IMG/VR virus record: IMGVR_UViG_3300007540_000072
Coordinates: 1 to 29,118 of that record
Origin: a virus
DNA: 29,118 nucleotides
Reading direction: 5' to 3' (one strand)
Part shown: positions 3,540 through 26,342 of the stretch, piece by piece
How positions within the stretch are numbered: position 1 is the first letter of the stretch
Layout of the letters: every line of letters begins with the position of its first letter
Notes under the pieces: generated by a model
What the model was told of the DNA's origin: nothing
Databases searched by the model: none
What the model saw: only the letters and a program-made list of their open reading frames with translations
Translations under genes and position numbers: made by a program

Positions 3540-6500
3540 ATGGCAGAACAACAATTTCAACCTCTTTGGACTAAAGAGCAGTTAAAACAGTTTACTACAC
3601 TATATGAAGGCAGAGGACATCTGCTTTCCCCTGAAAATAAGCAAAAGATAGAGCAGCACTCAGCATATTACAACGTCCCTTTCTATGAAGGTGAAGGTAG
3701 TATTATCAAGGGGATTAAGGCTGCTGGAGCGGGCATTGTTGACGCTCTAACGCTTAATCTTTTTGCGTCTCATGAGCCTCCAAAATCGCAATCTGAAGCT
3801 ATAGCAAAAAACATAGGGCATCTGATTGGTTTTGCTCCATCAATAATGTCTGCTCCATTAAGGGCTTTGGCGGGAGCGAGCAGAAGCAGAGGGCTTGCAA
3901 AAGCTGCAGGATACATTGCAAAGCAAGGTAATAAAATCTCTCCCTCAATGATTATTGCAGACAAGGCTACTAAGGTAGCTGATAAAGCCGCTAATGTTGG
4001 ATTAAATTTAGTTAATGCAGAGAAGATTAGCACGCTAACTGGCGCAAAAAAACTATTATTAGGTGGGCCTGCTAGAAGTATCGCTCGTCAATCATTTCAT
4101 CTTGGAGTAGCATCAGCAGCAGGAACTCTGCCTGATATTATTCAAGGTAATATTAATAGCACTTGGGAGGCGTTTAAAGGTGGTGCTACAGCTGGAGCTG
4201 CATTTGGAGTTATAGGTGAAACTATAGGCCCAATGAGCCATGCATCACTCAAAAAATTATTTGATAATCCTAAAACAGCAGCTCAAGGTAGTACTGCCCT
4301 AAAGGCTATATCAGGCTCTTTAGTGCAAGGGAATATGGCAGCCGGTCATGGCGCTACTAACCCAGAGTTAGTATATGAGTATCTTTTAGGTGCTTATTTT
4401 GGTGGGCATGCAGGGACATGGTATAAGACTCGAGCTCAAAAACTTGCTAATGAAATAGATTCTCAGAAATCTGGCACTGAATCTCAAAGAAAAGAATACA
4501 ATGAATGGGCAAAACAAACTGGGAAAGACTTACAGGCTCATTCAAAAGTAAGGGATGAACCTATCGAAGTTAGGGAGGCTTTGAAAGATTTACAAGCAAT
4601 GCCTGATTTTGGAGACCCTTATGATAATTTAACAGGAAATTATAAAGACCAGTTAAAGAAAGAGGCAGGCTTAAAGGATGTTCAAGTTACCCCTATCGAA
4701 AAAACTCCTGAAGGTTTTGTTGATAAAGGTGAATATGTTGCTGGCAGAAAAGTTGTTACTGTTACAGAAAGTGCCCTTAAAAAGGATAACTATATAGCAA
4801 CTACAGGTACTAAGGGTGACGCTGTCCTCTCTAATATTGCAGGGAAATATGGCTTACCATCATTTAATTATGTACCTCGAAGACCACCTAAAGAGATTCG
4901 TGCAGGGCTTGATAGACCTTTAAGCGAAGACCAAATACAAGAAGCTAATAAGCATATATCTAAAGCTTCTAAAAGCCTATCTGAGGTTGTTGAGCAGCCA
5001 GATGGTACCACAAAGACAATTCCATTGCCATTAGCCAATATAGACCCTTATAAGCGTACTTTAATCTCTAAGAATTATTGGGCTGTTAAAAATGCTAAAG
5101 AAGTATATTTGGTTACTGAACTACGTGGTGATACTGGCAATAAAATCGTTACAGATAGTATCCAGAAATGGCCAGCTCAAATGGCTAAGGATTTAGGAAA
5201 AGATTTATTTGTCTTGGATTCATCCACCAATAGATGGCATGAGTGGAATAAGCTTAGTAGACGTTTTGTACCGTTAGCCGACAATGCATCTCCCAAAAAA
5301 CCTTCTGATTCTATAGCCCTTTTAGGTGGAGATAGAGCTACTCAGTCGCGGGCTATAAGGCAGTCTATTGATACATGGCTATCTAGTCATTATAAGAAAA
5401 ACCCTATTGCAGGTGAGGTGGCTAGAAGAACTAGAAGGGTTCAAGCAGACTTAATTAAGGAAACTCAGCAATTAAATGCTCAAAAAGAAGGTATCCAGAA
5501 AGTATTAAAAGATTTATCTCAAGTAGAGCAGACCGATGATATTATAGCTCAAGTTAAGGGGTTAGAGAGCACCCTTGATAAGACTAATAAAGCTTTAGAG
5601 TTAATTGAAAGCCAGACTACTAAAACTTTTATAGAAGAGGCAATACAAGAAGAAGCTAAGACCAATGAGGTTATTGCAGAAAAATTAGATTTTGATACTG
5701 AAATAACAGATAAAGAAATTTATAAGACATCGATATATTTATCTGATAAATATTTTGAAGAGTTTTGGGGAGCTAGGGCTGGAATTGAAACATCTTACAA
5801 CCAGCATATTAAGAAAATAGAAATATCCCAAGCCATTGATGATATTATCTATAAGAAGCATGCAGAACGAGGCTCTAAGAAAAATCGCTCAGAAGATGCA
5901 ACTAAGGATATAGAAGATTATATTAACGATAAAGATAGTCAGTTTGATAAAACAGACTTTAAATTACCTGAGCAAGCTAGAGGGGATATTAGACAGGCTA
6001 TATCAAGATATAATTTAGGTGCCCCTGTTTACCATTTAGCGTCTGATGGAATTACATATTATAAAATCCCTGGCAATAATCAGGTCTCTAGAGGAGGGAC
6101 TCGTAAGAACCAATTAGAACCTGAAAAATATATAGAATCAACCTATAAGAATGCTGCAGAAGCTGCAGGTCTTGAGGTTAAAGAGCCTTTTATGTTCACC
6201 CTGGACCATGTAACGCGATTTAATAAAGACCGTGGCTTTAATGTGGATATGGAATTATCTAGATTTAGGCAACAAGCAGACCCTGCAGAGTACCGAGCTT
6301 TTATAAAAAATGTTGCGGAAAAAGCTGACAAAGAAGGTATGTATATATTTGGTGGGGCTAGCGATAAAGACAGGCTTTATTTTATTAAATATCACCCTCA
6401 AGCCAGTGAAACTGTTCAGAAAAATACTCAATTATTTTTTAATCAGCTTTCAAAGCAAGGGTTGTTCACTAAAGAGGACTTGACTCTTTCAAGGAAGCAG

Positions 6501-9500
6501 TCTGCTCAAGATGGCATGACTCGTAGTCAGCATGACAAAGCCTTGATATCTAATATACTCTATGATTTAAGTATGAATGGACAAACAATTTATGACATTC
6601 CTAAGTTTCTTAAGTCTGATGCTCAATTCGTAAAAGGCTCTGCTGGATTTAATAAACGTGCTCAAATATGGTTTACAAATTCATATCCTGCTGATGCTGA
6701 ATTTATCAAGTCTAATTACATTAATGATGCTGGACAGTCTCTATTAAATAAGAACGGTAAGTATAACACTATTATGGTTAATGACTTACCTGAGCATATC
6801 AGAAATAAGATGGATAAAAAGCATCCAGATTATGATAAAGATTTTACTTTTGCTAAAAATTCATTAGATAACATAGAGAATCCAGAAAATGTTGATGGCG
6901 CTATTATAGTTCCTGATAATTTACTTAATGTAATTAATAAAGACTTTGGGGTTCCTAAATCTGGCCAGAATAAGTCATTCATAATCTCTCCCGATAGAGA
7001 GCATGGAACATTACTTGGTAAGTATATGATGCATGGAGCAGGCCCAGAATTAAGTAAAATGATGGAATCTCAAGGGCTTCATATGATTATGCAAGAAACT
7101 GCTGTTAAGCAGCGTGGTACACGTGAAATAGGTGATTATTTTATTAAGGATGGGGAGCTTGATATACAAGCAAAAACTTATGAAATAAGCCCTGAAGATG
7201 TTAAAGGTTCATATGGCGTATATGGTAATGACCACTTCTTTGATACACAAAGGCTACCTAAACAAGTTATGCTTAATATGCTTGAGTCTAGCTTTAATCC
7301 AATGAGTCAAGATGTTATTAATGAGTCTTTTGATAAGATTATAGGCAATCGCTGGAATGGTGAACCAGAGTTTCAGAATAAGCTAAAGAATTATTTAGAA
7401 GATTCGGCAGAGGGAATAGAGCCAAGCTCTAGAATACCTAACTTAATTAAGAACATTGAAAAGATACCAGTCTTTGACCTTGTAGAGGCTGTGCGCTCTG
7501 AAAGCTCTCCTCAGTTAGCAGAAGCATTGTATCAGAAAATGCTTAAGGTTAATAAGGAAAATGTAGCTATTGAGCATAGGGATGGTGATATTAATTCAGG
7601 GCAATACAAAGAATATCTAACTGAATTAAATGAGTTTAATAGTATTACGGACCGGTTGATTAAAAATGCTACTGCTATAGCAGAAGAAGCTAGAAGCGCT
7701 GGAAGTAATATTACTGCCGATTCAATCTATAATCATAAGTTTATTCGAGACTTTAAAGCTAGGGCTGTACAAAGCTTTTTAATTAATACTGCAGCTAAAC
7801 CTTTTATGGGTAACTCTGGGGCTGCATATATGCGTCCATATGATAAAGCTATGCGTATCAATCTTGATAAGGCTAATGAATTGCTTGATTTAAATCATTT
7901 GAATGGCATTAATAAAAATGATGAAATATTCTTTTTAGATAATTTTCATAAAAAAGTGAAAATATATTTAAATGATGCTAGAGGGTCAGAGTATAAAAGC
8001 ACCCTAGGTGAAGTATTTTCTGACTATTCTAAGCTTCAATCAAAAAAGCGTAATAAAGCTGATAATGAGCGTTTAGCATATTTAGAAGAAGTTTTAACTG
8101 CTGCTACAGTAAGAGTGCCAATGGATTCAGTATCAGGCATGCGTATACTTAAATTTGGTGGCTTTACTGGTAGAGATGGGCATGGCATATTATTACATTC
8201 TAAGGCAATGAGAGCAGAAGGTGGAGCCGACCTTGATGGGGATAAAGCCTTCTACTATTTTGGCGGCACTCGTGGTATGTCTAAAGATATGATGCAAGAG
8301 TTTCATAAGAATAAAAAAGAATTTGAATATACTGATGCTAAAGGTGAAATTTATACTAAGGATAATAAAGAGGCTCTAATTAATCAGGATATTACTATAG
8401 CTGGGGTAAAGTATAAAAAAGGTACTCCTGTCAGGGAACTACTTATTGCGCGCGCAGAAACTGAGCAAGATAAAAATAAAATGGCATTAGCTGAAAGTTC
8501 ATTAAGCCATTATGCCCCCTCTGAACGTATACGTATATCTTCAGCTGCAGTAGATGGGCGTAATCAATTAGGTCCAGCAGTTTCTAATTCTCAATTAATG
8601 AAAGGTGCTTTTAATTCAATAGTCGCCTCTGGTGGTACAGATGTACTTAATTTTAAAGATATCTATCTTGGAGATATTGGTGTTACAATTAAAGCTAAAA
8701 ATGATAAGGATAGTGTTTTACTGCAAAGAGATATAAGTAGAGCGCAATTAGGCTTAGCATCTGACCCTATGGATGAGCTTGGTCTCTCTAGTATTAAGTC
8801 ATGGAAGAAGATTCTATGGGACTCGTACTTTGAGGTAATAGATGCCAAGACTAAGGATGGCAAACGAGTTCCTAAGGCTGAATTAGCTGCCCTTAAGGAG
8901 AGATTATCGCAGGTAGATGAGCTAGACTTTAGTTATACTAATTCAGGCTTATTCGGCGATTTTGTTAATCTAAATAAGGGGTTGTGGGGCAGAAATTATA
9001 CGGAAAATAGAGCATTTGATATGTATGAGATACAAGATTTATTAAGCTCTTCAATGAATATTTTAGAACGTAAAGGTGCCTCTAATTCATTTTTACCTAA
9101 AATTGGAAATCTGTTTGTTAATTTAGACTGGTCAGATTCTCCATTTACCCGACTTAACAAGCAAAAACTTTTATATTCATATATCCAGACTAATAATAAA
9201 TTAAAAGCTCGTAAGCCTTTACAGGAACTATTAGGTCGTTCAAGTATGAAAGTTCCGTATACTGAACAGATATCTAATATATTGGAAACTAAGTATAATG
9301 ATAGGGTCTATTCAATTTATCGACCGTCTGATAGAGTAGATGCTGCTGGTAGCGTTGATGTGTTTAATAGAATTATTAAAGGGACTAGATATTCTGATAG
9401 AGCAAAAGGAATTGAAGGTATTTCTGATAATACTACAGATGGCTTTCATTTACGACTTAAAATGCTTAATAAGATGGTGAAGCAGGGTGAAGACTTTATT

Positions 9501-12500
9501 GTTAATGATATTACTGATATGATAACCCTTAATCTTATTGATGATATTATGAAAACTAGCAATATCTCGCCTAAAAGATTTCAGGCTATTTCAGAAATGG
9601 TGGATTATCTTAAAAAGAATAGTTATTTAATGATGCGTGATAGGCAAAATCTTGAAGCTAGATTATCAAGCATCAAAGATAAGCGTATTCGTGAAATATT
9701 CAAAGGGGCTACTGATGAAATATTTAAAGGCGGTAAGGAAGTTAAACCTGGTGAAGACCCAATTAGAACATCTGAAATGGACCAAGTTGCGATTGACCAA
9801 CAAATCAAGCAATTTAGAAAAAAGGCGGGATTAAATAAGGCTGAAAATATGCTCTTTGACCAGTTGATGCTTGGGTCAATCACTAGAGGTACTAAGCTCG
9901 ATAAAATTGAAGCTTTTGAGTCTGAAGCTAAGAGAACTAAAAATAAAATTGCTTTAGATTATATTAAGAATTTAAGAAACTTAAATTCTAAAACAAACCT
10001 TGGTAGGTTAGGGTTTAGCAGCAGCGCTATTAATGATTCATCTGTTCGTTTGCATCTTAGGCGGTATATGGAAATGATGAATGAAAATTATATCCCTCTA
10101 AATAAAACTGAATTAGCATCGCTTGATAAAGCTCTTGGTAATATTATAGATACACCTCCATCTATGCCTAATGTTATATCAAAGATGGCCACGAATACTG
10201 GCTTTGAAGGTATTGACACTAAAGCTAGGCCTACTAAAAATAAAGAGCTTGCAAGCTTGGTATCAGAAACTGCTGTTTTATTAAAAAATCATCCTGATAT
10301 CGTTAAGAAAAAATCTGGTGAAGATTTGAATGAGTTCATTAGAGGATTGCCATTTATAAGAAAAGATTTCGATGCGATGAGTATTGCGGACGTATATAAA
10401 CTCAATGCATATTTAAAGCAGGTCAAGGAAGGTACTATATGGCAAAGAATTAAAGATACCTTTGGTAAGGATAAAAAAGCCCTTTCTTTTAGGCATTACC
10501 AACAATTACCTAGTACAGTCAGTAGAGAGCTTGAGGCTACAGAGATAAACCTTATTCGCAAAGAAGGGTATTTTACTGATGCTAAGGGTGAGTTGCAATT
10601 TGGTAAAATTAAGGTTCCTACTCAATTTATAGATACATTGACCAATAGTATAGGTAGAATGACCGAGATGGGGACTCAGGTTGGAGATAAGCTTGTTAGT
10701 AGATTCCAAGAAAGTCAGTTATTTTATCAAGGTGTTGAAGATGCAGCACGTTTATGGGAAGTTGCTATTAGACAGCGAGAATATGATGGTCGTCATGAAT
10801 TAAGAAGTATCCGTGAGAAGTTAGGTAAAGACCCTAAAGCTACAGAGCGTTCTATTAAATATATGGAACAAAATTTAAAGGATGCTAAGAAAGCAATAGA
10901 CTGGACTAAAACTCAAAATAAAAAATATTTAGTAAACCTCCCTGAAGGTAGAGTTGAGCGGACTGGAAAGCAGATTATAGACAGGATTAATAAAAATTTA
11001 ACTGAATATATGGAAGAAATGCATACCATTATTCGCGGAAGAGAAGAATTTCGTGGCGAGCAATCACCATATTTTATAGAATGGTATGATAAAGAGCAAT
11101 TATCACCTAAATACAATCATACAGCTTTTTTAAAGGATTTAGATACCTATCTTAATGGTCGTGTGCCTTTGCGCTGGAGAAAGGTTATGAAGAGCACTAA
11201 TGAATCAATCCCTAGTATATTTGGTATTGATGGCGTTAGAGCTATGATGCGTGAAATGCATATTGAATTTTTAATGGAAATAGGTAGAAATAAGGGTGGT
11301 GAAGTTGGAAAGAAATTTATTGAAAAGGCTCGTGAATTATCAGATTATCCTGTAAAGGAAACTGGAAAGCTATCCTTTGAATCATATTTCCCAAGAATGT
11401 TCTTTGAACCAGGTGTAGTTAAAAAAGGATTAAAGGCGGCTACACAAGAAATTATTAATGATAAGACGCTTACATCTGAAGCAAGGATTGATAAGTTAGT
11501 TAAAATTCAAAATAAATATAAACGACTTGATGGTGATTATTTCTTTGAAGAAATGGAAGATGGCCCATTATATGATTCTTTAACTAAAGCATTGCATGCA
11601 AAAGAAGAAGTTTCTAGTGAAAGAATGAAAAACTGGTTCAGCCTTGATGCTAGTACAGGTAATATGAGGAGCCGTGAGCATAGTACTGAAGGTTGGAGTG
11701 TTGCTCCTACTTCTGTTGAGGCATATGTTAGGTCATTAAGCAATACATATTTTAAAGGCCTTGCTGGGATGATATCTCGTAATATTGTTTCCAATCCTGA
11801 AACTGGTGTATACAAGAAATTAGTTAATAAGTGGGGGGTTGAGAATGCAGAAGCATGGACTGAATATGCTAAATTATATGTTAATGATGCTTTAGGTAAT
11901 CCTGTAACTATCTCAGAGAAAATGATGAATGACCCTAAAATGGCCTTGAAATATTCTCCATATGCAAGATGGGCAGATAATAGGGTTGCAGACAAACTAA
12001 GTAAATGGTCTGCTAAATTGGGTATAAAGGGGGTTGTTGATAAGGATGGCCAAATTTTAGGCGGAGTTAATGAGTATGATGTAAAAAGATTATCTCAAAT
12101 GGAAGCTAGATTTCAAATGGCTTCTTTGCTTGCTCATCCAAAATCAATGGCTGCCAACCTTATGGGTGGTACATTACATACCTTGCAAAGCTCAGGATTA
12201 AGTGCATTTAGGAATGTATTTAATTATGAATATTTACAAAATATTAATCCAAAGTTAAAAAGTCGCTCTGATGTTGAAGATATGGTAATGGACCATGGAG
12301 TTTTACCTCAATGGATGATATATGAATTAGGGTTGCAAAAAGAATTTCAAACTAATCAAGGTAAAGAAAGCCTTAAAGTTATATCTGATTTCATTAAGCG
12401 TAACCCTAATGCAAAACCAAAAGAATTAACAGAGTATTTAAAATCTATTGGCTCAGGCATTAGCGAAAAGACTTCTAATTTTGCAGCTAAATTTATGACT

Positions 12501-13271
12501 GTACCTGAAAGAAAGCTTCGTACCGATGCATTTATGGCTCATTATATTAAGGCATGGGAATCATTTGGTGGAGCTATTAAAGACCCTAATCATCCATTTT
12601 TAATTGAAATGGCTAAAAAGGGTGTTGAAGCTACTCAATTCCTTTATTCAGCTCCATATAGGCCTGCTTATGCAAGAACATCATTAGGAAAGGTAATGAC
12701 TAGATTCCAAATGTATGCATGGAACTCTGTTAAGCTACGTGGTGATGTGATGAGAAGACTGGAAGTGGCAGGATATAAGCCTAATAGCCCTGAGGGCAGG
12801 GAAGCAACAAGGTTTATTATGGGCGATATGTTTATGCTATCCTTAGCTAATATATTTGCTTATTCATTATTTGAAAATAACTTACCTCAACCTTATGGAT
12901 GGTTTCAGGATACAGCTGATTGGATTTTTGGAGATGAGAAAGAGCGAGATAAAGCTTTCTTTGGCACCTATCCTACAGCAATTGCTCCATTGCAAGCTAT
13001 TACACCTCCAATAGGCCGTGTTGGATTAATTATATCTAATATATTAAATGGGGATATGGAAAGAGTTACGGATTATTATATACATACAATGTATCCGTTT
13101 GGTAGAATGGGTCGTGATATTTATGGAAAAGGTGGGATATTAGAAGCCCCTATTAGGCTTGTAGATAAGTTAACTGGTATACCTTTGACCCAGATACAAA
13201 GAAAGACAAAAAGAATGCGTGAGCAGGAATCTGAGTTTTTATATCCTAAAGCATTTACAGGTGGATACTAA
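3540..13271 (+). CDS. Giant virion-associated protein (3243 residues) with DLDGD motif, candidate two-barrel RNA polymerase
   Basis: One uninterrupted frame starts at ATG 3540, with AAGGGG about 12 bases upstream, and fills a third of the window. Seen directly: an apolar/amphipathic N-terminal region (about 45-80), a coiled coil at about 630-705, and at residues 1564-1568 the motif DLDGD within GGADLDGDKAFYYFGG. About 40 residues earlier is RVPMDSVSGMRILKFGG. This order resembles the second double-psi barrel of two-barrel polymerases: DFDGD in cellular beta-prime, DLDGD in QDE-1-type RNA-dependent polymerases and DxDGD in the virion-packaged polymerase of crAss-like phages. A hydrophobic stretch lies near residues 3096-3115. 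The position after ejection-type proteins suggests that it travels in the virion and is injected. Polymerase activity is an inference; the rest of the chain is unrecognised and may be a multi-domain 'polyvalent' protein. Confidence 0.85.
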   Translation: MAEQQFQPLWTKEQLKQFTTLYEGRGHLLSPENKQKIEQHSAYYNVPFYEGEGSIIKGIKAAGAGIVDALTLNLFASHEPPKSQSEAIAKNIGHLIGFAPSIMSAPLRALAGASRSRGLAKAAGYIAKQGNKISPSMIIADKATKVADKAANVGLNLVNAEKISTLTGAKKLLLGGPARSIARQSFHLGVASAAGTLPDIIQGNINSTWEAFKGGATAGAAFGVIGETIGPMSHASLKKLFDNPKTAAQGSTALKAISGSLVQGNMAAGHGATNPELVYEYLLGAYFGGHAGTWYKTRAQKLANEIDSQKSGTESQRKEYNEWAKQTGKDLQAHSKVRDEPIEVREALKDLQAMPDFGDPYDNLTGNYKDQLKKEAGLKDVQVTPIEKTPEGFVDKGEYVAGRKVVTVTESALKKDNYIATTGTKGDAVLSNIAGKYGLPSFNYVPRRPPKEIRAGLDRPLSEDQIQEANKHISKASKSLSEVVEQPDGTTKTIPLPLANIDPYKRTLISKNYWAVKNAKEVYLVTELRGDTGNKIVTDSIQKWPAQMAKDLGKDLFVLDSSTNRWHEWNKLSRRFVPLADNASPKKPSDSIALLGGDRATQSRAIRQSIDTWLSSHYKKNPIAGEVARRTRRVQADLIKETQQLNAQKEGIQKVLKDLSQVEQTDDIIAQVKGLESTLDKTNKALELIESQTTKTFIEEAIQEEAKTNEVIAEKLDFDTEITDKEIYKTSIYLSDKYFEEFWGARAGIETSYNQHIKKIEISQAIDDIIYKKHAERGSKKNRSEDATKDIEDYINDKDSQFDKTDFKLPEQARGDIRQAISRYNLGAPVYHLASDGITYYKIPGNNQVSRGGTRKNQLEPEKYIESTYKNAAEAAGLEVKEPFMFTLDHVTRFNKDRGFNVDMELSRFRQQADPAEYRAFIKNVAEKADKEGMYIFGGASDKDRLYFIKYHPQASETVQKNTQLFFNQLSKQGLFTKEDLTLSRKQSAQDGMTRSQHDKALISNILYDLSMNGQTIYDIPKFLKSDAQFVKGSAGFNKRAQIWFTNSYPADAEFIKSNYINDAGQSLLNKNGKYNTIMVNDLPEHIRNKMDKKHPDYDKDFTFAKNSLDNIENPENVDGAIIVPDNLLNVINKDFGVPKSGQNKSFIISPDREHGTLLGKYMMHGAGPELSKMMESQGLHMIMQETAVKQRGTREIGDYFIKDGELDIQAKTYEISPEDVKGSYGVYGNDHFFDTQRLPKQVMLNMLESSFNPMSQDVINESFDKIIGNRWNGEPEFQNKLKNYLEDSAEGIEPSSRIPNLIKNIEKIPVFDLVEAVRSESSPQLAEALYQKMLKVNKENVAIEHRDGDINSGQYKEYLTELNEFNSITDRLIKNATAIAEEARSAGSNITADSIYNHKFIRDFKARAVQSFLINTAAKPFMGNSGAAYMRPYDKAMRINLDKANELLDLNHLNGINKNDEIFFLDNFHKKVKIYLNDARGSEYKSTLGEVFSDYSKLQSKKRNKADNERLAYLEEVLTAATVRVPMDSVSGMRILKFGGFTGRDGHGILLHSKAMRAEGGADLDGDKAFYYFGGTRGMSKDMMQEFHKNKKEFEYTDAKGEIYTKDNKEALINQDITIAGVKYKKGTPVRELLIARAETEQDKNKMALAESSLSHYAPSERIRISSAAVDGRNQLGPAVSNSQLMKGAFNSIVASGGTDVLNFKDIYLGDIGVTIKAKNDKDSVLLQRDISRAQLGLASDPMDELGLSSIKSWKKILWDSYFEVIDAKTKDGKRVPKAELAALKERLSQVDELDFSYTNSGLFGDFVNLNKGLWGRNYTENRAFDMYEIQDLLSSSMNILERKGASNSFLPKIGNLFVNLDWSDSPFTRLNKQKLLYSYIQTNNKLKARKPLQELLGRSSMKVPYTEQISNILETKYNDRVYSIYRPSDRVDAAGSVDVFNRIIKGTRYSDRAKGIEGISDNTTDGFHLRLKMLNKMVKQGEDFIVNDITDMITLNLIDDIMKTSNISPKRFQAISEMVDYLKKNSYLMMRDRQNLEARLSSIKDKRIREIFKGATDEIFKGGKEVKPGEDPIRTSEMDQVAIDQQIKQFRKKAGLNKAENMLFDQLMLGSITRGTKLDKIEAFESEAKRTKNKIALDYIKNLRNLNSKTNLGRLGFSSSAINDSSVRLHLRRYMEMMNENYIPLNKTELASLDKALGNIIDTPPSMPNVISKMATNTGFEGIDTKARPTKNKELASLVSETAVLLKNHPDIVKKKSGEDLNEFIRGLPFIRKDFDAMSIADVYKLNAYLKQVKEGTIWQRIKDTFGKDKKALSFRHYQQLPSTVSRELEATEINLIRKEGYFTDAKGELQFGKIKVPTQFIDTLTNSIGRMTEMGTQVGDKLVSRFQESQLFYQGVEDAARLWEVAIRQREYDGRHELRSIREKLGKDPKATERSIKYMEQNLKDAKKAIDWTKTQNKKYLVNLPEGRVERTGKQIIDRINKNLTEYMEEMHTIIRGREEFRGEQSPYFIEWYDKEQLSPKYNHTAFLKDLDTYLNGRVPLRWRKVMKSTNESIPSIFGIDGVRAMMREMHIEFLMEIGRNKGGEVGKKFIEKARELSDYPVKETGKLSFESYFPRMFFEPGVVKKGLKAATQEIINDKTLTSEARIDKLVKIQNKYKRLDGDYFFEEMEDGPLYDSLTKALHAKEEVSSERMKNWFSLDASTGNMRSREHSTEGWSVAPTSVEAYVRSLSNTYFKGLAGMISRNIVSNPETGVYKKLVNKWGVENAEAWTEYAKLYVNDALGNPVTISEKMMNDPKMALKYSPYARWADNRVADKLSKWSAKLGIKGVVDKDGQILGGVNEYDVKRLSQMEARFQMASLLAHPKSMAANLMGGTLHTLQSSGLSAFRNVFNYEYLQNINPKLKSRSDVEDMVMDHGVLPQWMIYELGLQKEFQTNQGKESLKVISDFIKRNPNAKPKELTEYLKSIGSGISEKTSNFAAKFMTVPERKLRTDAFMAHYIKAWESFGGAIKDPNHPFLIEMAKKGVEATQFLYSAPYRPAYARTSLGKVMTRFQMYAWNSVKLRGDVMRRLEVAGYKPNSPEGREATRFIMGDMFMLSLANIFAYSLFENNLPQPYGWFQDTADWIFGDEKERDKAFFGTYPTAIAPLQAITPPIGRVGLIISNILNGDMERVTDYYIHTMYPFGRMGRDIYGKGGILEAPIRLVDKLTGIPLTQIQRKTKRMREQESEFLYPKAFTGGY

Positions 13272-15569: not shown

Positions 15570-16445
15570 TTAAAATATATACCTAATTGTATTCCAAGGT
15601 ACTATACTGGTATGCTTAAGCTTAAACTTCTTTATGTATTCCTTTTTGTAGAATCTATTGTATCTAATATTAGTGTTACCATATTGAGAAACCTTAGTTT
15701 CCTGTATATCAGGAGTCCATAAGTAGTCTTCACCTTGTATATCATTTTTCTTGTTATATTCATGCATTTTTGGATTATGTGTCATAAATATACATTCAGA
15801 TAGTACATCTTTTTTGATATTATTCCTAACATTATCATTAACAAGCTCAAATAAGTCTTGATAGTCATCAAGCCACCCTGTATAATGCACTATAGGGCTG
15901 TAGTTAATATGCACATCATAACCTGCATCATAGAAATCATTTATTGCCTTGATTCTGTCTATAATTTGACTGGTATTAGGCTCTAGTTTATCGGATAATG
16001 CTTGAGGCATCAGGCTATATCTTATTCTTATCCTTCTATCACCATTTTTATCTCTAGAATCATAACTTAAAAGCTTTCTATTTACATATTTTGTAGCCAT
16101 AGTAGCCATTATAGGCAAGCCACACTCTTTAAAGCAGTTAAATATAAATTCCCAGTCATGGTATTTAGAATGTAATACAAAATCTTCATTGCAACTAATG
16201 TCATAGGTCCAAAATTTGTCATGTGTTTGGTTAGGCGTTTTTGGCCCAAGCATAAATGCATGTTCAAATATTTTATCAAAGATTTGCCCTGGATTATTTG
16301 CAATTGTTAAACCATTAGGTAAGTGTCTACGCATATAGCAATAGCTACATTTGTATAAACATCCAAAACCAAACGATGGTGATATATAATCACTGCTTCG
16401 CCCTGATTCCCTAATTTTCATAGATTTTCTTGTTACATACTTCAT
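15570..16445 (-). CDS. Radical SAM protein, spore photoproduct lyase-like, 291 residues
   Basis: The N-terminal segment contains FGFGCLYKCSYCYMRRH with the CxxxCxxC cluster at C29, C33 and C36, which binds the 4Fe-4S cluster that cleaves S-adenosylmethionine. The surrounding layout (SPSFGFGC, later INYSPIVHYTGWLDDY) is like the spore photoproduct lyase-type radical SAM family found in phages and bacteria. ATG 16445 overlaps the upstream stop (ATGA). The substrate is unknown: repair of UV-damaged DNA or modification of a base or protein are all possible. A Cys well after the cluster (C131 region), used by true photoproduct lyases, is not obvious, so I do not assign that reaction. Confidence 0.8.
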   Translation of the reverse strand: MKYVTRKSMKIRESGRSSDYISPSFGFGCLYKCSYCYMRRHLPNGLTIANNPGQIFDKIFEHAFMLGPKTPNQTHDKFWTYDISCNEDFVLHSKYHDWEFIFNCFKECGLPIMATMATKYVNRKLLSYDSRDKNGDRRIRIRYSLMPQALSDKLEPNTSQIIDRIKAINDFYDAGYDVHINYSPIVHYTGWLDDYQDLFELVNDNVRNNIKKDVLSECIFMTHNPKMHEYNKKNDIQGEDYLWTPDIQETKVSQYGNTNIRYNRFYKKEYIKKFKLKHTSIVPWNTIRYIF

Positions 16446-16642: not shown

Positions 16643-16663
16643 AATACTCCCAATTAATCCCCT

Positions 16664-16766
16664 AGCCACAGGATTTTAGATTGCTAATTCGTGGTCAACA
16701 ACTGAAATCACTTAACTTGGATGAATGTAAATAACAAACCATGTTAATTAATATTCTCCTGTGGCT
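16664..16766 (-). other. Intergenic 10-bp perfect inverted repeat, possible RNA structure
   Basis: The arms AGCCACAGGA (16664-16673) and TCCTGTGGCT (16757-16766) are exact reverse complements, 83 bases apart, in the gap between the HNH gene and the zinc-ribbon gene. No good gene lies between them. A stem-loop in the leftward transcript is the simplest reading; a processing site or a remnant end of an inserted element are alternatives. Confidence 0.5.
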
Positions 16767-16781
16767 CTCTTGGGGAAACTT

Positions 16782-20790: not shown

Positions 20791-21450
20791 CTATCCAGCG
20801 CTATAAACAAGCTTATTATTAGGAAATGTAAAGATAATTTCACTATTAAATTGCTCATTATTCATCACCTTTTTCACTGCATTAGCTATAAATGCACCAC
20901 TCATATTTGAGCAGTAACTAGTAGCTTTTGCATTGCAGGGTTCACTACTTGCTGAATCATCAGAATACCAAGTATTAACATAATCCTGTAATCTAGGATT
21001 TTTAAGTATGTATTGACGATATTGCTCAGAGCCCATACGGCCATCAATCAATAAAGACGGCTTATTACCTCTTTGTAGAGCTATTTTCGCAGCCTCTAGT
21101 CTAGCTTGCATGCTATCAAAGCCTAATATTACTACATCACTCTCATTAAGAGGCTTGATAAACTCAGTGAATAGTCCGAATTGTGTATGCACAGCTACTG
21201 CAGGATTAATTTCCTTTAGATGTCTGTCTAATGCATCAACTTTTCTTTTACCCACATCTCTTATTACATAATGACTTACTCCGATATTCTGTACCTCAAC
21301 TTTATCAAGGTCATAGAGTACAAATTCATCTACTCCCATCCTTGCTAATTGAGTGGCTGCGGAACTGCCAATAGCTCCGCAACCTAAAATATGAAATATC
21401 TTGTCCTGAAAGTCATTTATCAGTCCACTACTTCTTTCATTAAACCTCAA
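20791..21450 (-). CDS. E1/ThiF-like activating enzyme, 219 residues
   Basis: N-terminal Rossmann motif HILGCGAIGSSAATQLARMG (glycine loop 23-28), then the acidic strand end FVLYDLDKVEVQNIG (D47/D49, N55) and FDSM (D112), as in the ThiF/MoeB/E1 superfamily that adenylates the C-terminal glycine of ubiquitin-like proteins. Candidate transfer cysteines are C172 and C180 (EPCNAKATSYC). The zinc-binding CxxC pairs of MoeB are absent, and at 219 residues the protein is shorter than usual. ATG 21450 overlaps the JAMM protease stop. Its partners would be the small beta-grasp protein and the E2-like protein upstream. Confidence 0.85.
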   Translation of the reverse strand: MRFNERSSGLINDFQDKIFHILGCGAIGSSAATQLARMGVDEFVLYDLDKVEVQNIGVSHYVIRDVGKRKVDALDRHLKEINPAVAVHTQFGLFTEFIKPLNESDVVILGFDSMQARLEAAKIALQRGNKPSLLIDGRMGSEQYRQYILKNPRLQDYVNTWYSDDSASSEPCNAKATSYCSNMSGAFIANAVKKVMNNEQFNSEIIFTFPNNKLVYSAG

Positions 21451-22424
21451 AACGGTATCTCCTCTGTTTTATGTTCGATATTTTCATAATAATCATCATC
21501 CCAATAGCTAATTATTGCATCTTCAAGACGCACACCATCAGTAAATGTGCTTACTGCAACATTATACTTTTTTAGCTTAGCATTTAGAGGCTTGATACCC
21601 TTTTCCCATGCATCTAGTGCGTCATTAGAGGTTTTCATTGAATCGCATAAATCAACTAGCTTGATTAAATCCTTATCTGCCTCATTTTTTACATTTTGAG
21701 GTATAGATGTAAAATTTACATGCTTTTGAGTATAGCTATTGAAATAAACACCACTTGAAATATCACCATAACCTCCATATCCGCCATAATAAGAGCCATC
21801 TGAATAATCATTTTCTCTATGATATCCATATGTTTTATTATTAACGCCTAATGGAAGGTAAGATTGTTCTCCAGGTTTAGCATATGTAAAAGTTGACGCA
21901 CTTTTAGTGCATTGTTCTTTAACTTCAGCTAATATTGCATCATCAATGTCTTCATCTACTGTTAGGAAGTTAAGTTCAACATTCTCTTCATGAAGAAATG
22001 GCTGAAAGAATTGAATCCTTAGCTTATATTCCTTCTTCAGATTAACAACCAATGAAACAGTCCAGTCTTTTGACGGCATATCTAATATAGTCGAATTATC
22101 AGTACCTGACCAAAATGCATCCATTGTATGATGGCTATGCCACCAACAAAAGCGTACATCTGGTCCATGTTTCATTGCAGTTTTTGCATAATACTGCGCT
22201 AATGCAGTTTCATCAAGGGTGCATAGGCTTCCTGATACAGTTTGTTCCATAATTACAGGTGTTTTTAGTACAAAATCACCTTCTTCATCTGGAACTACTA
22301 TCATTTGACCTGCAATCTCTGATTTAAACTCATTATATGATGCTGCAGCATAATTTATTACTTTCTGGAAGTCATCGGGATGTATCCAGAATTTAGTATC
22401 TTTATTTGCTTCTTTTTTAGTCAT
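21447..22424 (-). CDS. JAMM/JAB metalloprotease, 325 residues
   Basis: All JAMM ligands are present: E36 (SEIAGQMIV), then WWHSHHTMDAFWSGTDN with H96, H98, S106 and D109, i.e. HxHx7SxxD. JAMM proteases cleave ubiquitin-like proteins after their terminal Gly, maturing the precursor or removing it from targets. The small ubiquitin-like protein of this cassette ends GGK, so removal of one Lys would expose GlyGly. C-terminal residues about 180-240 are Tyr/Gly-rich, then helical. Start has AAGGAG; the stop overlaps the E1-like start. Only the zinc domain is recognised; the C-terminal half is unassigned. Confidence 0.88.
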   Translation of the reverse strand: MTKKEANKDTKFWIHPDDFQKVINYAAASYNEFKSEIAGQMIVVPDEEGDFVLKTPVIMEQTVSGSLCTLDETALAQYYAKTAMKHGPDVRFCWWHSHHTMDAFWSGTDNSTILDMPSKDWTVSLVVNLKKEYKLRIQFFQPFLHEENVELNFLTVDEDIDDAILAEVKEQCTKSASTFTYAKPGEQSYLPLGVNNKTYGYHRENDYSDGSYYGGYGGYGDISSGVYFNSYTQKHVNFTSIPQNVKNEADKDLIKLVDLCDSMKTSNDALDAWEKGIKPLNAKLKKYNVAVSTFTDGVRLEDAIISYWDDDYYENIEHKTEEIPF

Positions 22425-22432
22425 GTTTCTCC

Positions 22433-24118
22433 TTATAACCTGTTTGCAAAAGTAATTATTTCATTTTCTGGTGTTCTACCAGCTCTTTGACGAGCAATGT
22501 GATTAACTCGAATGATTTGAATAGATGTTAAGTCAAAATCTAAACCTAAATCATCTCTTATATATCTATAATAAATCTCTTCACATAACTTGAAGTGCTT
22601 TATAAAGATACTCGCATTATATTCTTTTAGGTCCATAATGTCTATAAATATCTTAGAAAACTCTGAGTCAGATGCAAAGCTATTACCCATACCCTCTACA
22701 CCAAATATATCTAATAAATCTCTATTAAGGTCTCTTTTAACCTTGTTAGCAGCTTGGACATAAAGTCTATTTAGATATTCTTCAAAATCTTCCATATCCT
22801 CGAACCTACTGAAGTTGATATTTGAGTATTCTAGCCATTTTTCCATAACGAAATGGTCCCATGCATGTTTTTCATCATCATCTGAAAATGAAAGAACCGT
22901 TGGCTCTTCTGTCCATCCTAGATATATATTACAGTCTTTGATAAGTTGGCAATTACTGCAGAATGTTTCTATGAAATCTTCTTTAGTAATATCATTATAG
23001 TCTTCAACTTGCATACTACATAAGCTAGTGCTTCCATGCCAATCATTATCATTAACCTGCAAAGGCTTGCCAAATACACTCTTATAATATCTGTTTAATG
23101 GATTGATATCATTTTTTGGATAGTATGATGACCATCTTCTAAGAAGTGGTATAGCAGGTATTATATTGCCAGATGCAAATAAAGATAAGATTCTCTCTTC
23201 AAATGTTCCAAAGCATGTATTACCTGTACCATATTCACTAGCACGTCTTCTTATTGATGCAGTAGGATTACCTGTTACAAATGGGTGCCTTAATGCTTGA
23301 TATTTAGGCCATTCATATGTTAATCCAGCAAAATGTTGATTATAAGCAATATTTATATCACCATTAGCAACTCTTCTAGATATAGTAATTGCATCTCGAA
23401 TGCTAATGCTTTGAGTTACCAATAAATCGCCATATTCATAGGAATAAGTTGTATCCCCTCTGCTATTAGTTATATCTACTACTATATCCTTAATAGGAAC
23501 TGCAATATTTATAAACCATTTGCTTGGGTCATCGACTAAATTAACACTTTTAATATTTAAGCTAGAATTAGTAATACGTTCTACATTACCATTTCTATCC
23601 ATATGAGGTAATGCTGGTGTACCTGCTGGTAAATTTTCAGCATAATTCCAACCCTTATTAAACCATGGAATTTGAGATATCTCTACTTTAATATCATCAT
23701 TGGCTAATACAGATTGATTTAAGTTATTTACCAGTGTATCTAATGCCAGTTGACCTTCTACATCTTCAGATTGAAAGAATTTAATACCTTGCTTTCTAAT
23801 CTCTTTTAGCTGGCCATCTAATTGTAATGCTCTAGCTAATACTCCATTCAGCTCATATCTTTCAGAGCTAAATACAGCTTTTATTGTTCTAGCTGATTCT
23901 AGCCTAGGTTGTGCAACACGTCTAGATAGTTCTTTAAATTTTGCATAACTACCTTGCTCCCATCTACCTGATTTAATAACCTTGATATCAGTTTGATACT
24001 TTGAGTTAAATTCGTCAAGCTTGTCTAAAAATGGACCTGTTAGTCCAAGCATATGCACAGCGATAGGAGGCGCTTCTATTGTGCTATGTTTTTCTTTTAA
24101 TTCCAATGTTTCTTGCAT
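22433..24118 (-). CDS. Large E2-like protein of a ubiquitin-like conjugation cassette, 561 residues
   Basis: Start at ATG 24118, six bases after GGAG. The central region reads KYQALRHPFVTG and, about 20 residues on, GTGNTCFGTFEERI (Cys at about 302), the HPxV...G..C.G pattern of bacterial E2-like (UBC-fold) proteins in ubiquitin-like operons. It is followed by the typical helical SLFASGNIIPAIPLLRRW. The N-terminal 270 residues (helix-rich then beta-rich) and the C-terminal 200 (CSNCQLIKDC then helices) are not recognised. A CxxCx5C cluster near 387-396 could bind zinc. It lies between the ubiquitin-like gene and the JAMM gene. E2 identity is inferred from one motif plus context. Confidence 0.6.
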   Translation of the reverse strand: MQETLELKEKHSTIEAPPIAVHMLGLTGPFLDKLDEFNSKYQTDIKVIKSGRWEQGSYAKFKELSRRVAQPRLESARTIKAVFSSERYELNGVLARALQLDGQLKEIRKQGIKFFQSEDVEGQLALDTLVNNLNQSVLANDDIKVEISQIPWFNKGWNYAENLPAGTPALPHMDRNGNVERITNSSLNIKSVNLVDDPSKWFINIAVPIKDIVVDITNSRGDTTYSYEYGDLLVTQSISIRDAITISRRVANGDINIAYNQHFAGLTYEWPKYQALRHPFVTGNPTASIRRRASEYGTGNTCFGTFEERILSLFASGNIIPAIPLLRRWSSYYPKNDINPLNRYYKSVFGKPLQVNDNDWHGSTSLCSMQVEDYNDITKEDFIETFCSNCQLIKDCNIYLGWTEEPTVLSFSDDDEKHAWDHFVMEKWLEYSNINFSRFEDMEDFEEYLNRLYVQAANKVKRDLNRDLLDIFGVEGMGNSFASDSEFSKIFIDIMDLKEYNASIFIKHFKLCEEIYYRYIRDDLGLDFDLTSIQIIRVNHIARQRAGRTPENEIITFANRL

Positions 24119-24130
24119 TGTAATCTCCAA

Positions 24131-24371: not shown

Positions 24372-24596
24372 TTACTTACCGCCTTTTACTCCTTCAGAAA
24401 CGTGCGAAACCATCGCATCTTCTGTTAGAGGTGTACTGTCAACTGCAATTACCTCACCGACTGCTATAGAACCGGTTAAACCCAATTCTTCACGCAATTC
24501 ACCTACGGTTGTTGCTGTTGTTTCAGTATCTACAAAATTAAGACCACCATTCATTAGTTTAATAGTGATTCTTGTGATAGTTGTTTCTATTGCCAT
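24372..24596 (-). CDS. Ubiquitin-like beta-grasp protein, PRTRC protein C/ThiS-like, 74 residues
   Basis: ATG 24596 has AAGGAG upstream. The pattern is a beta-grasp: strand pair at 6-22 (TRITIKLMNGGLNFVD), helix VGELREELGL, strand GEVIAVDS, and a final strand DAMVSHVSEGVKGGK. It ends GlyGlyLys, so the activated C-terminus would be Gly-Gly after loss of the Lys. It resembles PRTRC protein C and ThiS-type proteins. With the E2-like, JAMM and E1-like genes just downstream it forms a complete conjugation set. It starts only 76 bases after the repeat array ends. Confidence 0.8.
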   Translation of the reverse strand: MAIETTITRITIKLMNGGLNFVDTETTATTVGELREELGLTGSIAVGEVIAVDSTPLTEDAMVSHVSEGVKGGK

Positions 24597-24671
24597 GTTG
24601 TATTTCTCCTTAAGTAAGAAAATATAAATCTAATACGGTTTAGTAACATAGTACCGCAAAATACTCCTGAC

Positions 24672-25095
24672 TGACAAAGTCATTAGATTTGATTAGTTGT
24701 CGAAAATTGATACATTTTATGCAGATGAGTTTATCAGCCAGTATGATACATTCATGTTCTGTGGGTTTATGTCGTCTTCTGATACATTACTTGAAGATGG
24801 AGTTATTCTCCTCCTTGATACATTCTCTGATTTTGGGATTCTGCTAAATCATGATACATTGGGCTTAGGTGGTGGTCTTGCCATAGCTGATACATTAAAG
24901 TGCCAATGGATTACTCCTTCTCCATGATACATTTGCTCTTCGTGGGATTCTTTCTCCGCCTGATAAGCCCCACATTTCTGCAGGGCTTGATACATTTGTT
25001 TATAGTGAGTTTATCTCTTAGGCTGATACATTTCCAGGGTGTGGGATGCTACGTCATAGTGATTCACTTCATTCATTTGGGATTCTACGTTCTGG
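24672..25095. repeat. TIGR-like array: twelve 36-bp units of two conserved and two variable 9-mers
   Basis: Read on +, each unit is block A (TGATACATT) + 9 variable bases + block B (consensus TGGGWTTMT) + 9 variable bases. A starts at 24708, 24744, 24780, 24816, 24852, 24888, 24925, 24988 and 25024 (all exact), with degenerate copies at 24672, 24961 and 25060. B starts at 24726, 24762, 24798, 24834, 24870, 24907, 24943, 25006, 25042 and 25078, plus a weak copy at 24690. Steps are 36 except 37 after 24888 and 27 for the unit at 24961, which has lost about nine bases. The variable 9-mers are all different. Period 36 with two 9-base guides per unit is the reported architecture of TIGR arrays (tigRNAs), and the adjacent gene is of the matching protein class. 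Confidence 0.9.
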
Positions 25096-25961
25096 TGGTT
25101 TAATCCTAATTTAGCCTCATGATACGGTGGGAAAGCTGGTAATCCTTCAATAGCCTTCCAATTCGTATACAAGTCAATGATGAACATCTTAATCATATAG
25201 CGTATAGCCATATTATGCTTATGTCCCTTAGATTTCTCTACATGAGCTGGCATATTATCTAAACGATGTCTATAATCGTCATAAACCTTACGATAAGGAT
25301 TATTTAATGCACCTGCTCTCAAGAATGAACTACCTAATACACCTACTAATTTAGACTTTAAGAATGGATTAAAAGATATACCTTGCTTGGTCTGCTCTTT
25401 ACCATCTTTATCTAAATAAGCTGATTCTACTAAATGTTCTTTCTTGCGAGAACGTCCAGCACCATTGACTACATCTAAACCTGCATATTTCCACATAGAA
25501 CTACTATATTTAGCTTTATGTATGTCAAATTCAGTTATCATTACTGATGCCATTGCTGGGCCAACACCTTTAACACCTTTTAAATAGTCTGTCCATATAG
25601 GATAGTCTGCTAATACCTTCTCTAATTGCTTAAAATGACGTGCTTCACTAGATTCTAAACCAAAGTATTGGTCTACTAATATAAGCTCAGTCATTGTTGA
25701 GATAAGGCCATTTTCAGCCTGACGTACCTTTCTAGGCAGTCTTACTACTCCTGCTGTTAATAATCTATACTCTTTTCTTAAAGTATCTAATATATTAATA
25801 GCTTCTTCAGGTGATTCTTCAGGTTCTTTTGAGCCTGGTTCAATACCTAATTTACATTTAAAATTAATAACTATACGATTACCAGTTGCTTGGCGTAGCT
25901 TTTGTATATCATATACGCCTCTAACAATGGTCTTTAAATTACTTATCATTTCTGTTGCCAT
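25011..25961 (-). CDS. Tas-like/IS110 Tnp-domain protein (no nuclease domain), 316 residues
   Basis: ATG 25961 follows AAAGGAG. Residues 125-165 read YLKGVKGVGPAMASVMITEF and MWKYAGLDV, the helix-hairpin-helix and GL(D/A) signature of the C-terminal domain of IS110-family transposases (Transposase_20). GRSRKKE near 171 sits where IS110 enzymes carry their Ser. The N-terminal DEDD RuvC-like domain is missing: residues 1-120 are helical. IS110 proteins bind a bispecific guide RNA, and Tas proteins of TIGR systems have a related RNA-binding (Nop) core. With a 36-bp dual-guide array starting inside its own 3' end, I read it as a nuclease-less Tas-like protein. The last 28 residues or so are encoded by array units. 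A stand-alone transposase remnant is the alternative. Confidence 0.8.
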   Translation of the reverse strand: MATEMISNLKTIVRGVYDIQKLRQATGNRIVINFKCKLGIEPGSKEPEESPEEAINILDTLRKEYRLLTAGVVRLPRKVRQAENGLISTMTELILVDQYFGLESSEARHFKQLEKVLADYPIWTDYLKGVKGVGPAMASVMITEFDIHKAKYSSSMWKYAGLDVVNGAGRSRKKEHLVESAYLDKDGKEQTKQGISFNPFLKSKLVGVLGSSFLRAGALNNPYRKVYDDYRHRLDNMPAHVEKSKGHKHNMAIRYMIKMFIIDLYTNWKAIEGLPAFPPYHEAKLGLNHQNVESQMNEVNHYDVASHTLEMYQPKR

Positions 25962-25984
25962 AGTTCTCCTTTAATTGCGATTAA

Positions 25985-26085
25985 AATAATGCAAGGTGCG
26001 CTAGCTGTCTTAGTAGGATTTCGTTCATGACAAGGAATCGTTAAGATTCAATCAGTATCATGCAAACACCATACCTTGCATTATT
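25985..26085 (-). ncRNA. Structured RNA candidate upstream of the tas-like gene
   Basis: Arms AATAATGCAAGGT (25985-25997) and ACCTTGCATTATT (26073-26085) pair perfectly over 13 bp and enclose 75 bases. Inside, nested arms pair too: CATGA (26026-26030) with TCATG (26058-26062), and GAATC (26035-26039) with GATTC (26045-26049), leaving a five-base loop. It ends 24 bases before the tas-like start, the place where IS110 elements encode their bridge RNA. It could be a guide-related RNA, a leader controlling tas translation, or a processing signal. Confidence 0.55.
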
Positions 26086-26135
26086 AGTTATTTATTTAGA
26101 AAGGAATATCACTTGATTCTGTGACTAAATATAAT

Positions 26136-26211
26136 AAAAAGAGAGTATCAAATAGGTCAAATAAGGAATGCCTTGGCTGGCCTCACGGTTACAGCTCTCT
26201 ACTCTCTTTTT
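26136..26211 (-). terminator. Branched terminator-like hairpin ending in T5
   Basis: In the leftward transcript AAAAAGAGAGTA (26211-26200) pairs with TACTCTCTTTTT (26147-26136), a perfect 12-bp stem whose 3' side ends in a T run. The 52-base loop holds a smaller hairpin (AAGG/CCTT). It lies directly after the 42-residue gene and before the structured RNA and the tas-like gene, so it may separate these transcripts. The loop is large for a classic terminator. Confidence 0.45.
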
Positions 26212-26213
26212 AA

Positions 26214-26342
26214 TTATGACTTGTACCAAATAGCGTAAAGTTGCCGTTTGGTCAGTCTATTGGCTTGCGCCTTCGTAAACCCACGATGATTCGTTACCCA
26301 GTTTACGAGTTGATGTTTGAAGTGATATGGACACTTGGTCAT
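26214..26342 (-). CDS. Small phage protein, 42 residues
   Basis: Begins MTKCPYHFKHQLVNWVTNHR and ends LTKRQLYAIWYKS, a basic, helical sequence of the small 'LTKxQLYAI' kind seen in phage early regions. The ATG (26342) overlaps the TGA of the upstream membrane gene (ATGA), so the two are probably translationally coupled. The TAA is followed at once by the terminator-like hairpin. Coding support: continuous frame, coupling, phage-like composition. Function unknown. Confidence 0.6.
   Translation of the reverse strand: MTKCPYHFKHQLVNWVTNHRGFTKAQANRLTKRQLYAIWYKS

Follow-up and report, generated by a model that had tools for sequence, protein, structure and literature searches.

Phages are already known to carry structured RNAs between their genes as well as stem-loop cassettes that are mobile. 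In the PeSL cassettes of T4-type phages, as summarized in PMC4503421 (citing Arbiol 2010 and Comeau 2014), an early promoter is combined with a terminator stem-loop, and each genome has many such cassettes. The put RNA of phage HK022 is structured, is part of early transcripts and needs no partner to act in cis, where it suppresses termination (PMC9378689); antiterminators of the put type relieve pausing or termination by binding RNA polymerase. Gut phages carry theta ribozymes, which are small structured RNAs with a hepatitis delta virus (HDV)-like fold that sometimes lie beside tRNA genes (PMC10879173), and the manA, wcaG and PhotoRC-II motifs of cyanophages are structured RNA motifs that come mainly from environmental phage DNA (PMC2864571). 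The tigRNA units of TIGR arrays and the IS110 bridge RNA present a terminal stem around a structured interior near a Nop-domain gene (PMC12045711). Here, we describe a 101-nt structured RNA element at positions 25985-26085 (minus strand) of the IMG/VR virus record IMGVR_UViG_3300007540_000072, whose analyzed stretch of 29,118 nucleotides is referred to as the window. The element lies just before a tas gene and appears to be new among phage RNAs of this kind by its sequence and predicted structure.

The element shares features with each of these systems. Like the PeSL cassettes in the summary cited above, it is a small intergenic stem-loop module that stands beside different genes in related phages and is linked to gene shuffling. 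It differs from the cassettes described there in being present once per record, in giving no internal promoter match and in having a near-invariant core that is foreign to ordinary terminators. Any likeness to HK022 put would be one of working mode, drawn from the description of put rather than from a sequence or structure comparison, and suppression of termination is a feature of put. The theta ribozymes are likewise small structured phage RNAs, and one copy of the present element is also located beside a tRNA gene (contig L136); however, the HDV-like fold is theirs, and the element has no Rfam ribozyme match. The element has a terminal stem around a structured interior in common with tigRNA units and the bridge RNA, but it is separable from tas and the array, is unrepeated and does not exhibit their guide layout. 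The resemblance to the manA, wcaG and PhotoRC-II motifs lies in their environmental phage origin, whereas their Rfam models are unmatched in the window and in six contigs with short copies of the element.

A family of small structured phage RNAs

The stem at 25985-26085 is confirmed as a real structured RNA element. The initial annotation of the window had marked a perfect 13-bp stem at this position, and its arms (25985-25997 and 26073-26085, with a 75-nt interior) are indeed perfectly complementary. On the minus strand, which is the coding strand of the adjoining tas gene, the element folds with -27.2 kcal/mol (z = -3.58), and 0 of 200 shuffled sequences folded equally well; the plus-strand fold is almost equal (-25.3 kcal/mol, z = -3.04). 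Apart from this repeat (25985-26085), the whole window has just one other perfect inverted repeat with arms of 13 bp or more and a short interior (26135-26212). Order-1 Markov sequences yield a mean of 0.17 such repeats per window, and 27 of 200 runs gave one or more. The tas start codon at 25961 is located 23 bases past the stem.

The window element almost certainly belongs to a family of small structured phage RNAs that is undescribed and has sharp boundaries. All of the copies come from IMG/VR phage contigs, which are denoted by L numbers. The first relatives, which have the same arms, were found in L015, L016 and L018 before or near a spore-photoproduct-lyase-like (SPL-like) gene, and a blastn match in L067/L069 corresponds to a copy with another outer stem sequence and an identical core. 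A pattern scan with TACTAAGACANCTAGCG matched 52 contigs, about 47 of which contain genuine copies with a stem directly outside the core; the matches in L135, L142, L158, L159 and L166 have no stem and were dropped as chance. In total, 28 distinct sequences were extracted, and the copies in L152, whose stem is interrupted, and in L193/L194 bring the number to about 30.

The family consensus reads P1 - UAUGG - P2 - CCUACUAAGACANCUAGCGCA - P1' or, in a fuller form, P1, UAUGG, P2 (4 to about 50 nt), CC, UACUAAGACA, N, CUAGCGCA and P1'. In the window, all of these parts are on the minus strand. The P1 5' arm AATAATGCAAGGT (26073..26085) is purine-rich in most copies, and its sequence is free while pairing is kept. 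It is followed by the conserved UAUGG of the 5' side of the core (26069..26073), in which UAUG is invariant in 26 copies; the first U overlaps the P1 5' arm, and the last two G residues begin P2. The variable P2 insert is present in the window in a long form (26018..26068), compared with 4-9 nt in short copies, and exhibits a compensatory A-U to G-C change between the window and L015/L016/L018. The conserved 3' strand CC-UACUAAGACA-G-CUAGCGCA (25997..26017) is invariant except for position N in all copies used, and its final A pairs with the U that ends the P1 5' arm. The P1 3' arm ACCTTGCATTATT (25985..25997) closes the element and leads into T-rich DNA. The outermost three of the 13 base pairs (AAT/ATT) vary among copies, the conserved helix begins with GCAAGG/CCTTGC, and the conserved family unit measures about 95 nt (25988-26082).

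Compensatory changes, which the initial annotation had itself named as the test of a structured RNA, are found in P1. In a 26-sequence alignment, the covariation score of P1 is 0.724, compared with 0.205 ± 0.032 in shuffled alignments, and sliding one side by 1-3 columns lowers it to 0.14-0.21. P1 is paired in 87.5% of the alignment cells, and seven of its eight pairs are altered on both sides in some copies. P2 keeps its first two pairs in every copy, with one G-C to U-A change. The proposed P3 pairing CUA/UAG is invariant save for one C to T variant of the conserved 3' strand, in L193/L194, where the pair is still formed as G-U; this was the one extra variant that a P3-relaxed viral scan returned. 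For the shortest copies (L141 and L174), RNAfold predicts a three-way junction. P1 is a freely varying clamp helix around a near-invariant core, and P2 is a hairpin of any length. The UAUGG/CC-UAC-UAAG arrangement resembles the 11-nt GAAA-tetraloop receptor (UAUGG/CCUAAG), a likeness that we take as a lead only.

The boundary of the family is sharp. The covariance model R1 was built from 12 short copies, with the window copy left out of training, and matches the minus strand of the window at 25989-26081 (53.5 bits, E = 1.4e-11). Genuine members score at least 37.6 bits and the next matches at most 17 bits, with nothing between 17 and 37 bits, and no intermediate or degenerate copies were found in 1.5 Mb of related phage DNA. 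The bases that flank the search pattern, which were not used for retrieval, are as conserved as the pattern bases themselves. Exactly one copy is present in each of 38 phage records searched whole, even at three mismatches. No Rfam 15 family matched the window or the six short-copy contigs at the gathering threshold in searches to E = 5 and 10. Neither core strand matched any of about 85,000 prokaryote genomes with the strict or the looser pattern, and an origin from a prokaryote or a CRISPR repeat was rejected. The blastn searches of named phages gave partial, chance-level matches with no full-length one, and those of plasmids gave nothing beyond this level.

A chance hairpin or an inert mobile inverted repeat is scarcely credible in view of these data. 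The locus is a recombination hotspot, as such an explanation would expect, but P1 changes with its pairing kept, unlike a set of terminal inverted repeats, and the near-invariant core recurs in phages that share little gene content. A transposable inverted-repeat element is ruled out on the same ground, as P1 differs among copies while its pairing holds. A small open reading frame (ORF) that starts at the AUG of UAUGG is also ruled out because the insert lengths are not multiples of three. Because the core is fixed, each genome has one copy and the carriers are phages of several gene contents, a nucleotide-exact function must exist.

Independence from the neighboring TIGR-Tas system

The gene adjoining the element (25011..25961, minus strand), annotated at first as tas-like, encodes a 316-residue Tas protein with a Nop-type region at about residues 84-275. 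Its product scores 114.8 bits against NCBIfam TIGR_Tas_endo (cut-off 100) and matches the TasR structure 9mty in the PDB (E = 1e-11) and TasH (5e-7). It is TasA-like, and its N-terminus is too short to accommodate a nuclease. The array at 24708..25032 (minus strand) carries AATGTATCA edge repeats at a spacing of mostly 36 nt, in the layout described for TIGR arrays (PMC12045711). The assignment of the locus as a TIGR-Tas system is therefore well supported by sequence comparison.

Does the element belong to this system? The initial annotation proposed a second RNA of the tas system, an analogue of the IS110 bridge RNA or a tas autoregulator, and the position of the element 23 nt before tas in both the window and L002 invites such a view, as does the existence of TIGR stem-loop units with terminal stems (PMC12045711). 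However, the element and tas behave independently at one and the same locus. L003 encodes a Tas protein that is 94% identical and has its own array, but the element is wholly absent, and a second hairpin is directly followed by the tas ribosome-binding site. In L014, the element is present and tas and the array are lost, with only the last edge repeat left. In L020, the flanks are 99-100% identical, and a ParB-like gene replaces both the element and tas. Furthermore, most of the other copies reside in phage contigs in which no tas gene was found near the element.

The molecular features of the element point in the same direction. The annotated TGATAC, which could pair with GTATCA in the array, is indeed present at element position 26 within the P2 insert. 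However, the same 6-mer occurs in 3.6% of shuffled sequences and in 4.4% of all 101-nt minus-strand windows, and 12% of shuffled sequences contain some 6-mer that is complementary to the AATGTATCA repeat, at whatever position. The site reads TGGTAC in L015/L016/L018 and lies within the variable insert that is absent from short copies. The TGATAC/GTATCA pairing is chance. An arrayed guide unit, in which box C/D motifs enclose two spacers, was not found; the element is a single copy with no shared repeat beyond the chance 6-mer, and no paired spacer/box arrangement is common to the element and the array. A bridge RNA is positioned at the end of an IS110 transposon, with loops that match donor and target DNA, whereas the element is not tied to the tas gene, and the tas product scores only 15.3 bits against the IS110 transposase cut-off of 140. 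A role of the element as a second tas-system RNA, a bridge-RNA-like RNA or a tas autoregulator is thus very improbable.

Some features of the TIGR-Tas loci are recorded here in their own right. One TIGR unit in the window is 63 nt long instead of 36 nt (24934-24996, minus strand) and holds the inverted repeat AGCCCTGCAG...GTGGGGCTT, and repeat-like units extend into the end of the tas ORF. In the more distant tas relatives L007, L008, L010 and L012, a GCGAGCCA/GCGTGCCA repeat array with AACC-type repeats is located directly 5' of tas, at the position occupied by the element in the window.

Genomic context and mode of action

The element is found between diverse early genes. It separates an SSB-like (single-stranded DNA-binding protein) gene from a primase-helicase gene in L164, L173, L147 and, by resemblance, L139; the helicase and primase assignment was made for L164. 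In L141, L149 and L174, the pair consists of an SSB-like gene and a probable primase gene, as judged from gene order and an acidic tail (no Pfam match). The element is also located between a ubiquitin-like gene and a large gene of a JAB/ThiF cassette in L067, L140, L157 and L161, between an unidentified gene and a tRNA gene in L136, between a hairpin and the SPL-like gene in L015, L016 and L018, and between a hairpin and tas in the window. Any gene that ends no more than about 85 nt upstream shares the strand of the element, which is then in sense orientation, and the next start codon or ribosome-binding site often follows P1 at a distance of about 20-40 nt. The element often fills the intergenic gap, leaving little space for a promoter of its own; promoter-like sites near the window locus are not above chance, and none is located inside the element. 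An all-against-all comparison of the incomplete records revealed no protein family common to all carriers, which suggests that the RNA either meets a factor that is universal or encoded by the host or is active by itself. In most copies, the DNA after P1 is T-rich (4.7 of 8 positions versus 2.4 expected), and the copies in L150, L171, L149 and L141 are terminator-like.

What is the function of this RNA? It is very probable that the element acts as RNA. We rank first, with a rough probability of 45%, the reading that it is a cis-acting intercistronic transcript element. The RNA would work in cis inside early polycistronic transcripts, between two genes. P1 and the T-rich 3' flank would form a stem that is terminator-like or serves in processing. 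The conserved core would either be recognized by a host-encoded or universal factor or self-fold into an active shape. As an outcome, the transcript would continue, end or be cut between the two genes. This specific cis mechanism is put forward more tentatively than cis action itself. With greater reserve still, we suggest that the family may represent an unrecognized functional class of phage RNA, such as a ribozyme, an aptamer-type switch or a polymerase-binding RNA, with a near-invariant core of about 25 nt, which would have spread as a mobile module, one copy at a time, from one pair of early genes to other, unrelated pairs.

Several observations weigh against the cis-acting reading or the fold that underlies it. 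RNAalifold pairs UAUG with CGCA and thereby extends P1, so that its interior fold differs from that of RNAfold. The copies in L138, L139, L140 and L153 have no T tract, so that a plain terminator is not general; P1' is itself pyrimidine-rich. A constitutive terminator between ssb and a primase-helicase gene would also be odd. Moreover, the records are fragments, so that missing partner genes weigh little, and the orientation bias could also reflect a DNA element aligned with replication.

This last point leads to a DNA-level element, a replication or single-strand initiation site or a recombination site that would form a hairpin in single-stranded DNA. Its single copy per record, frequent location in replication gene clusters and occurrence at recombination breakpoints would suit such a site. 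Its consistent sense orientation relative to the gene that ends just upstream, the T-rich flank on the RNA 3' side and its presence outside replication genes (tas, tRNA and ubiquitin-like genes) do not, and we regard a DNA-level function as quite improbable.

Alternatively, the RNA may be freed from the operon transcript as a trans-acting small RNA or decoy, with P1 stabilizing or terminating it and an exposed, near-invariant 19-nt strand binding a host or phage factor or a target RNA. The one copy per record, the location unlinked to any gene, the long invariant and possibly single-stranded stretch and the terminator-like P1 of many copies are consistent with this possibility. However, the usual lack of space for its own promoter speaks against it, and the absence of either core strand from the prokaryote genomes means that the RNA neither duplicates nor fully complements a chromosomal RNA or a CRISPR repeat. 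This alternative is of minor probability. A self-cleaving ribozyme of a new class that would cut early transcripts between genes is unlikely as well. A free P1, a free P2 length and a fixed core are the pattern of small ribozymes, phages are known to carry ribozymes (PMC10879173), and no partner protein would be needed. No Rfam ribozyme match was obtained, however, and none of the pattern matches is a circularly permuted copy, a form that is frequent in ribozymes. The cis-acting transcript element remains the reading that we place first.

Origin of the window copy and the surrounding locus

Upstream of the element, the window contains the fossil end of an SSB gene, GAATCAAGTGATATTCCTTTCTAA (26096..26119, minus strand), which translates to E-S-S-D-I-P-F-stop. 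It matches the live ssb ends in L164 and L173, where the SSB-like gene that closes with the ESSDIPF-stop tail is complete and the RNA follows it directly. The flank downstream of the window P1' likewise matches L164. This tail and flank show that the window copy arrived by recombination, together with part of an ssb|RNA|primase-helicase locus.

On the promoter side, a second structured element, hp2 (26135..26212, minus strand), delimits the variable locus and is retained where the first element is absent (L003 and L020). It appears to be a second recurring RNA and has no Rfam match. Its core UAACCGUGAGG is located in a small stem whose pairing is kept through changes (GCUG/CAGC, GCGG/CCGC, UGUG/CACA and GCUA/UAGC), as compared among L161, L028, L056, L054 and L074. 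The hotspot extends between hp2 and a ubiquitin-like gene (24372-26219 of the window, minus strand, and the corresponding loci of L002, L003, L014 and L020) and has at least four states: the element with tas and the array, tas and the array, the element alone, and a 248-residue ParB-like gene (PF02195). TIGR-Tas and parB thus alternate beside a ubiquitin-like/JAB/ThiF cassette that is PRTRC-like. In the window, the cassette forms one minus-strand operon that encodes a ubiquitin-like protein ending in GGK (24372-24596), a 565-residue protein without a family (22433-24130), a JAB-like protein (21447-22424) and a ThiF/E1-like protein (20791-21450).

Other features are found farther away. An SPL-like radical SAM protein (PF20903) is encoded at 15570-16445 (minus strand) and is also present in L015, L016, L018 and L138; several carriers of the element thus have it, among them ones that are otherwise little related (G048 and L177). 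A third intergenic inverted repeat, AGCCACAGGA/TCCTGTGGCT, is located at 16655-16775 (minus strand), and its motif GUUGACCACGAAUUA is also found in L015, L019, L020 and L081. A 3243-residue ORF at 3540-13271 (plus strand) has no PHROG match and carries GGADLDGDKAFYYFGG, which recalls the DxDGD motif found in two-barrel RNA polymerases; the product is possibly a virion RNA polymerase.

For the TIGR-Tas field, the separation of the element from tas disposes of a candidate second guide RNA that is tempting but wrong. Nothing in Rfam 15 accounts for the RNA family to which the element belongs. With a fixed core and a length of 44 nt in the L141 copy, the RNA is small enough for direct cleavage, termination or factor-binding tests, and if it is true that the RNA is catalytic or ligand-binding, it would constitute a new class outright.
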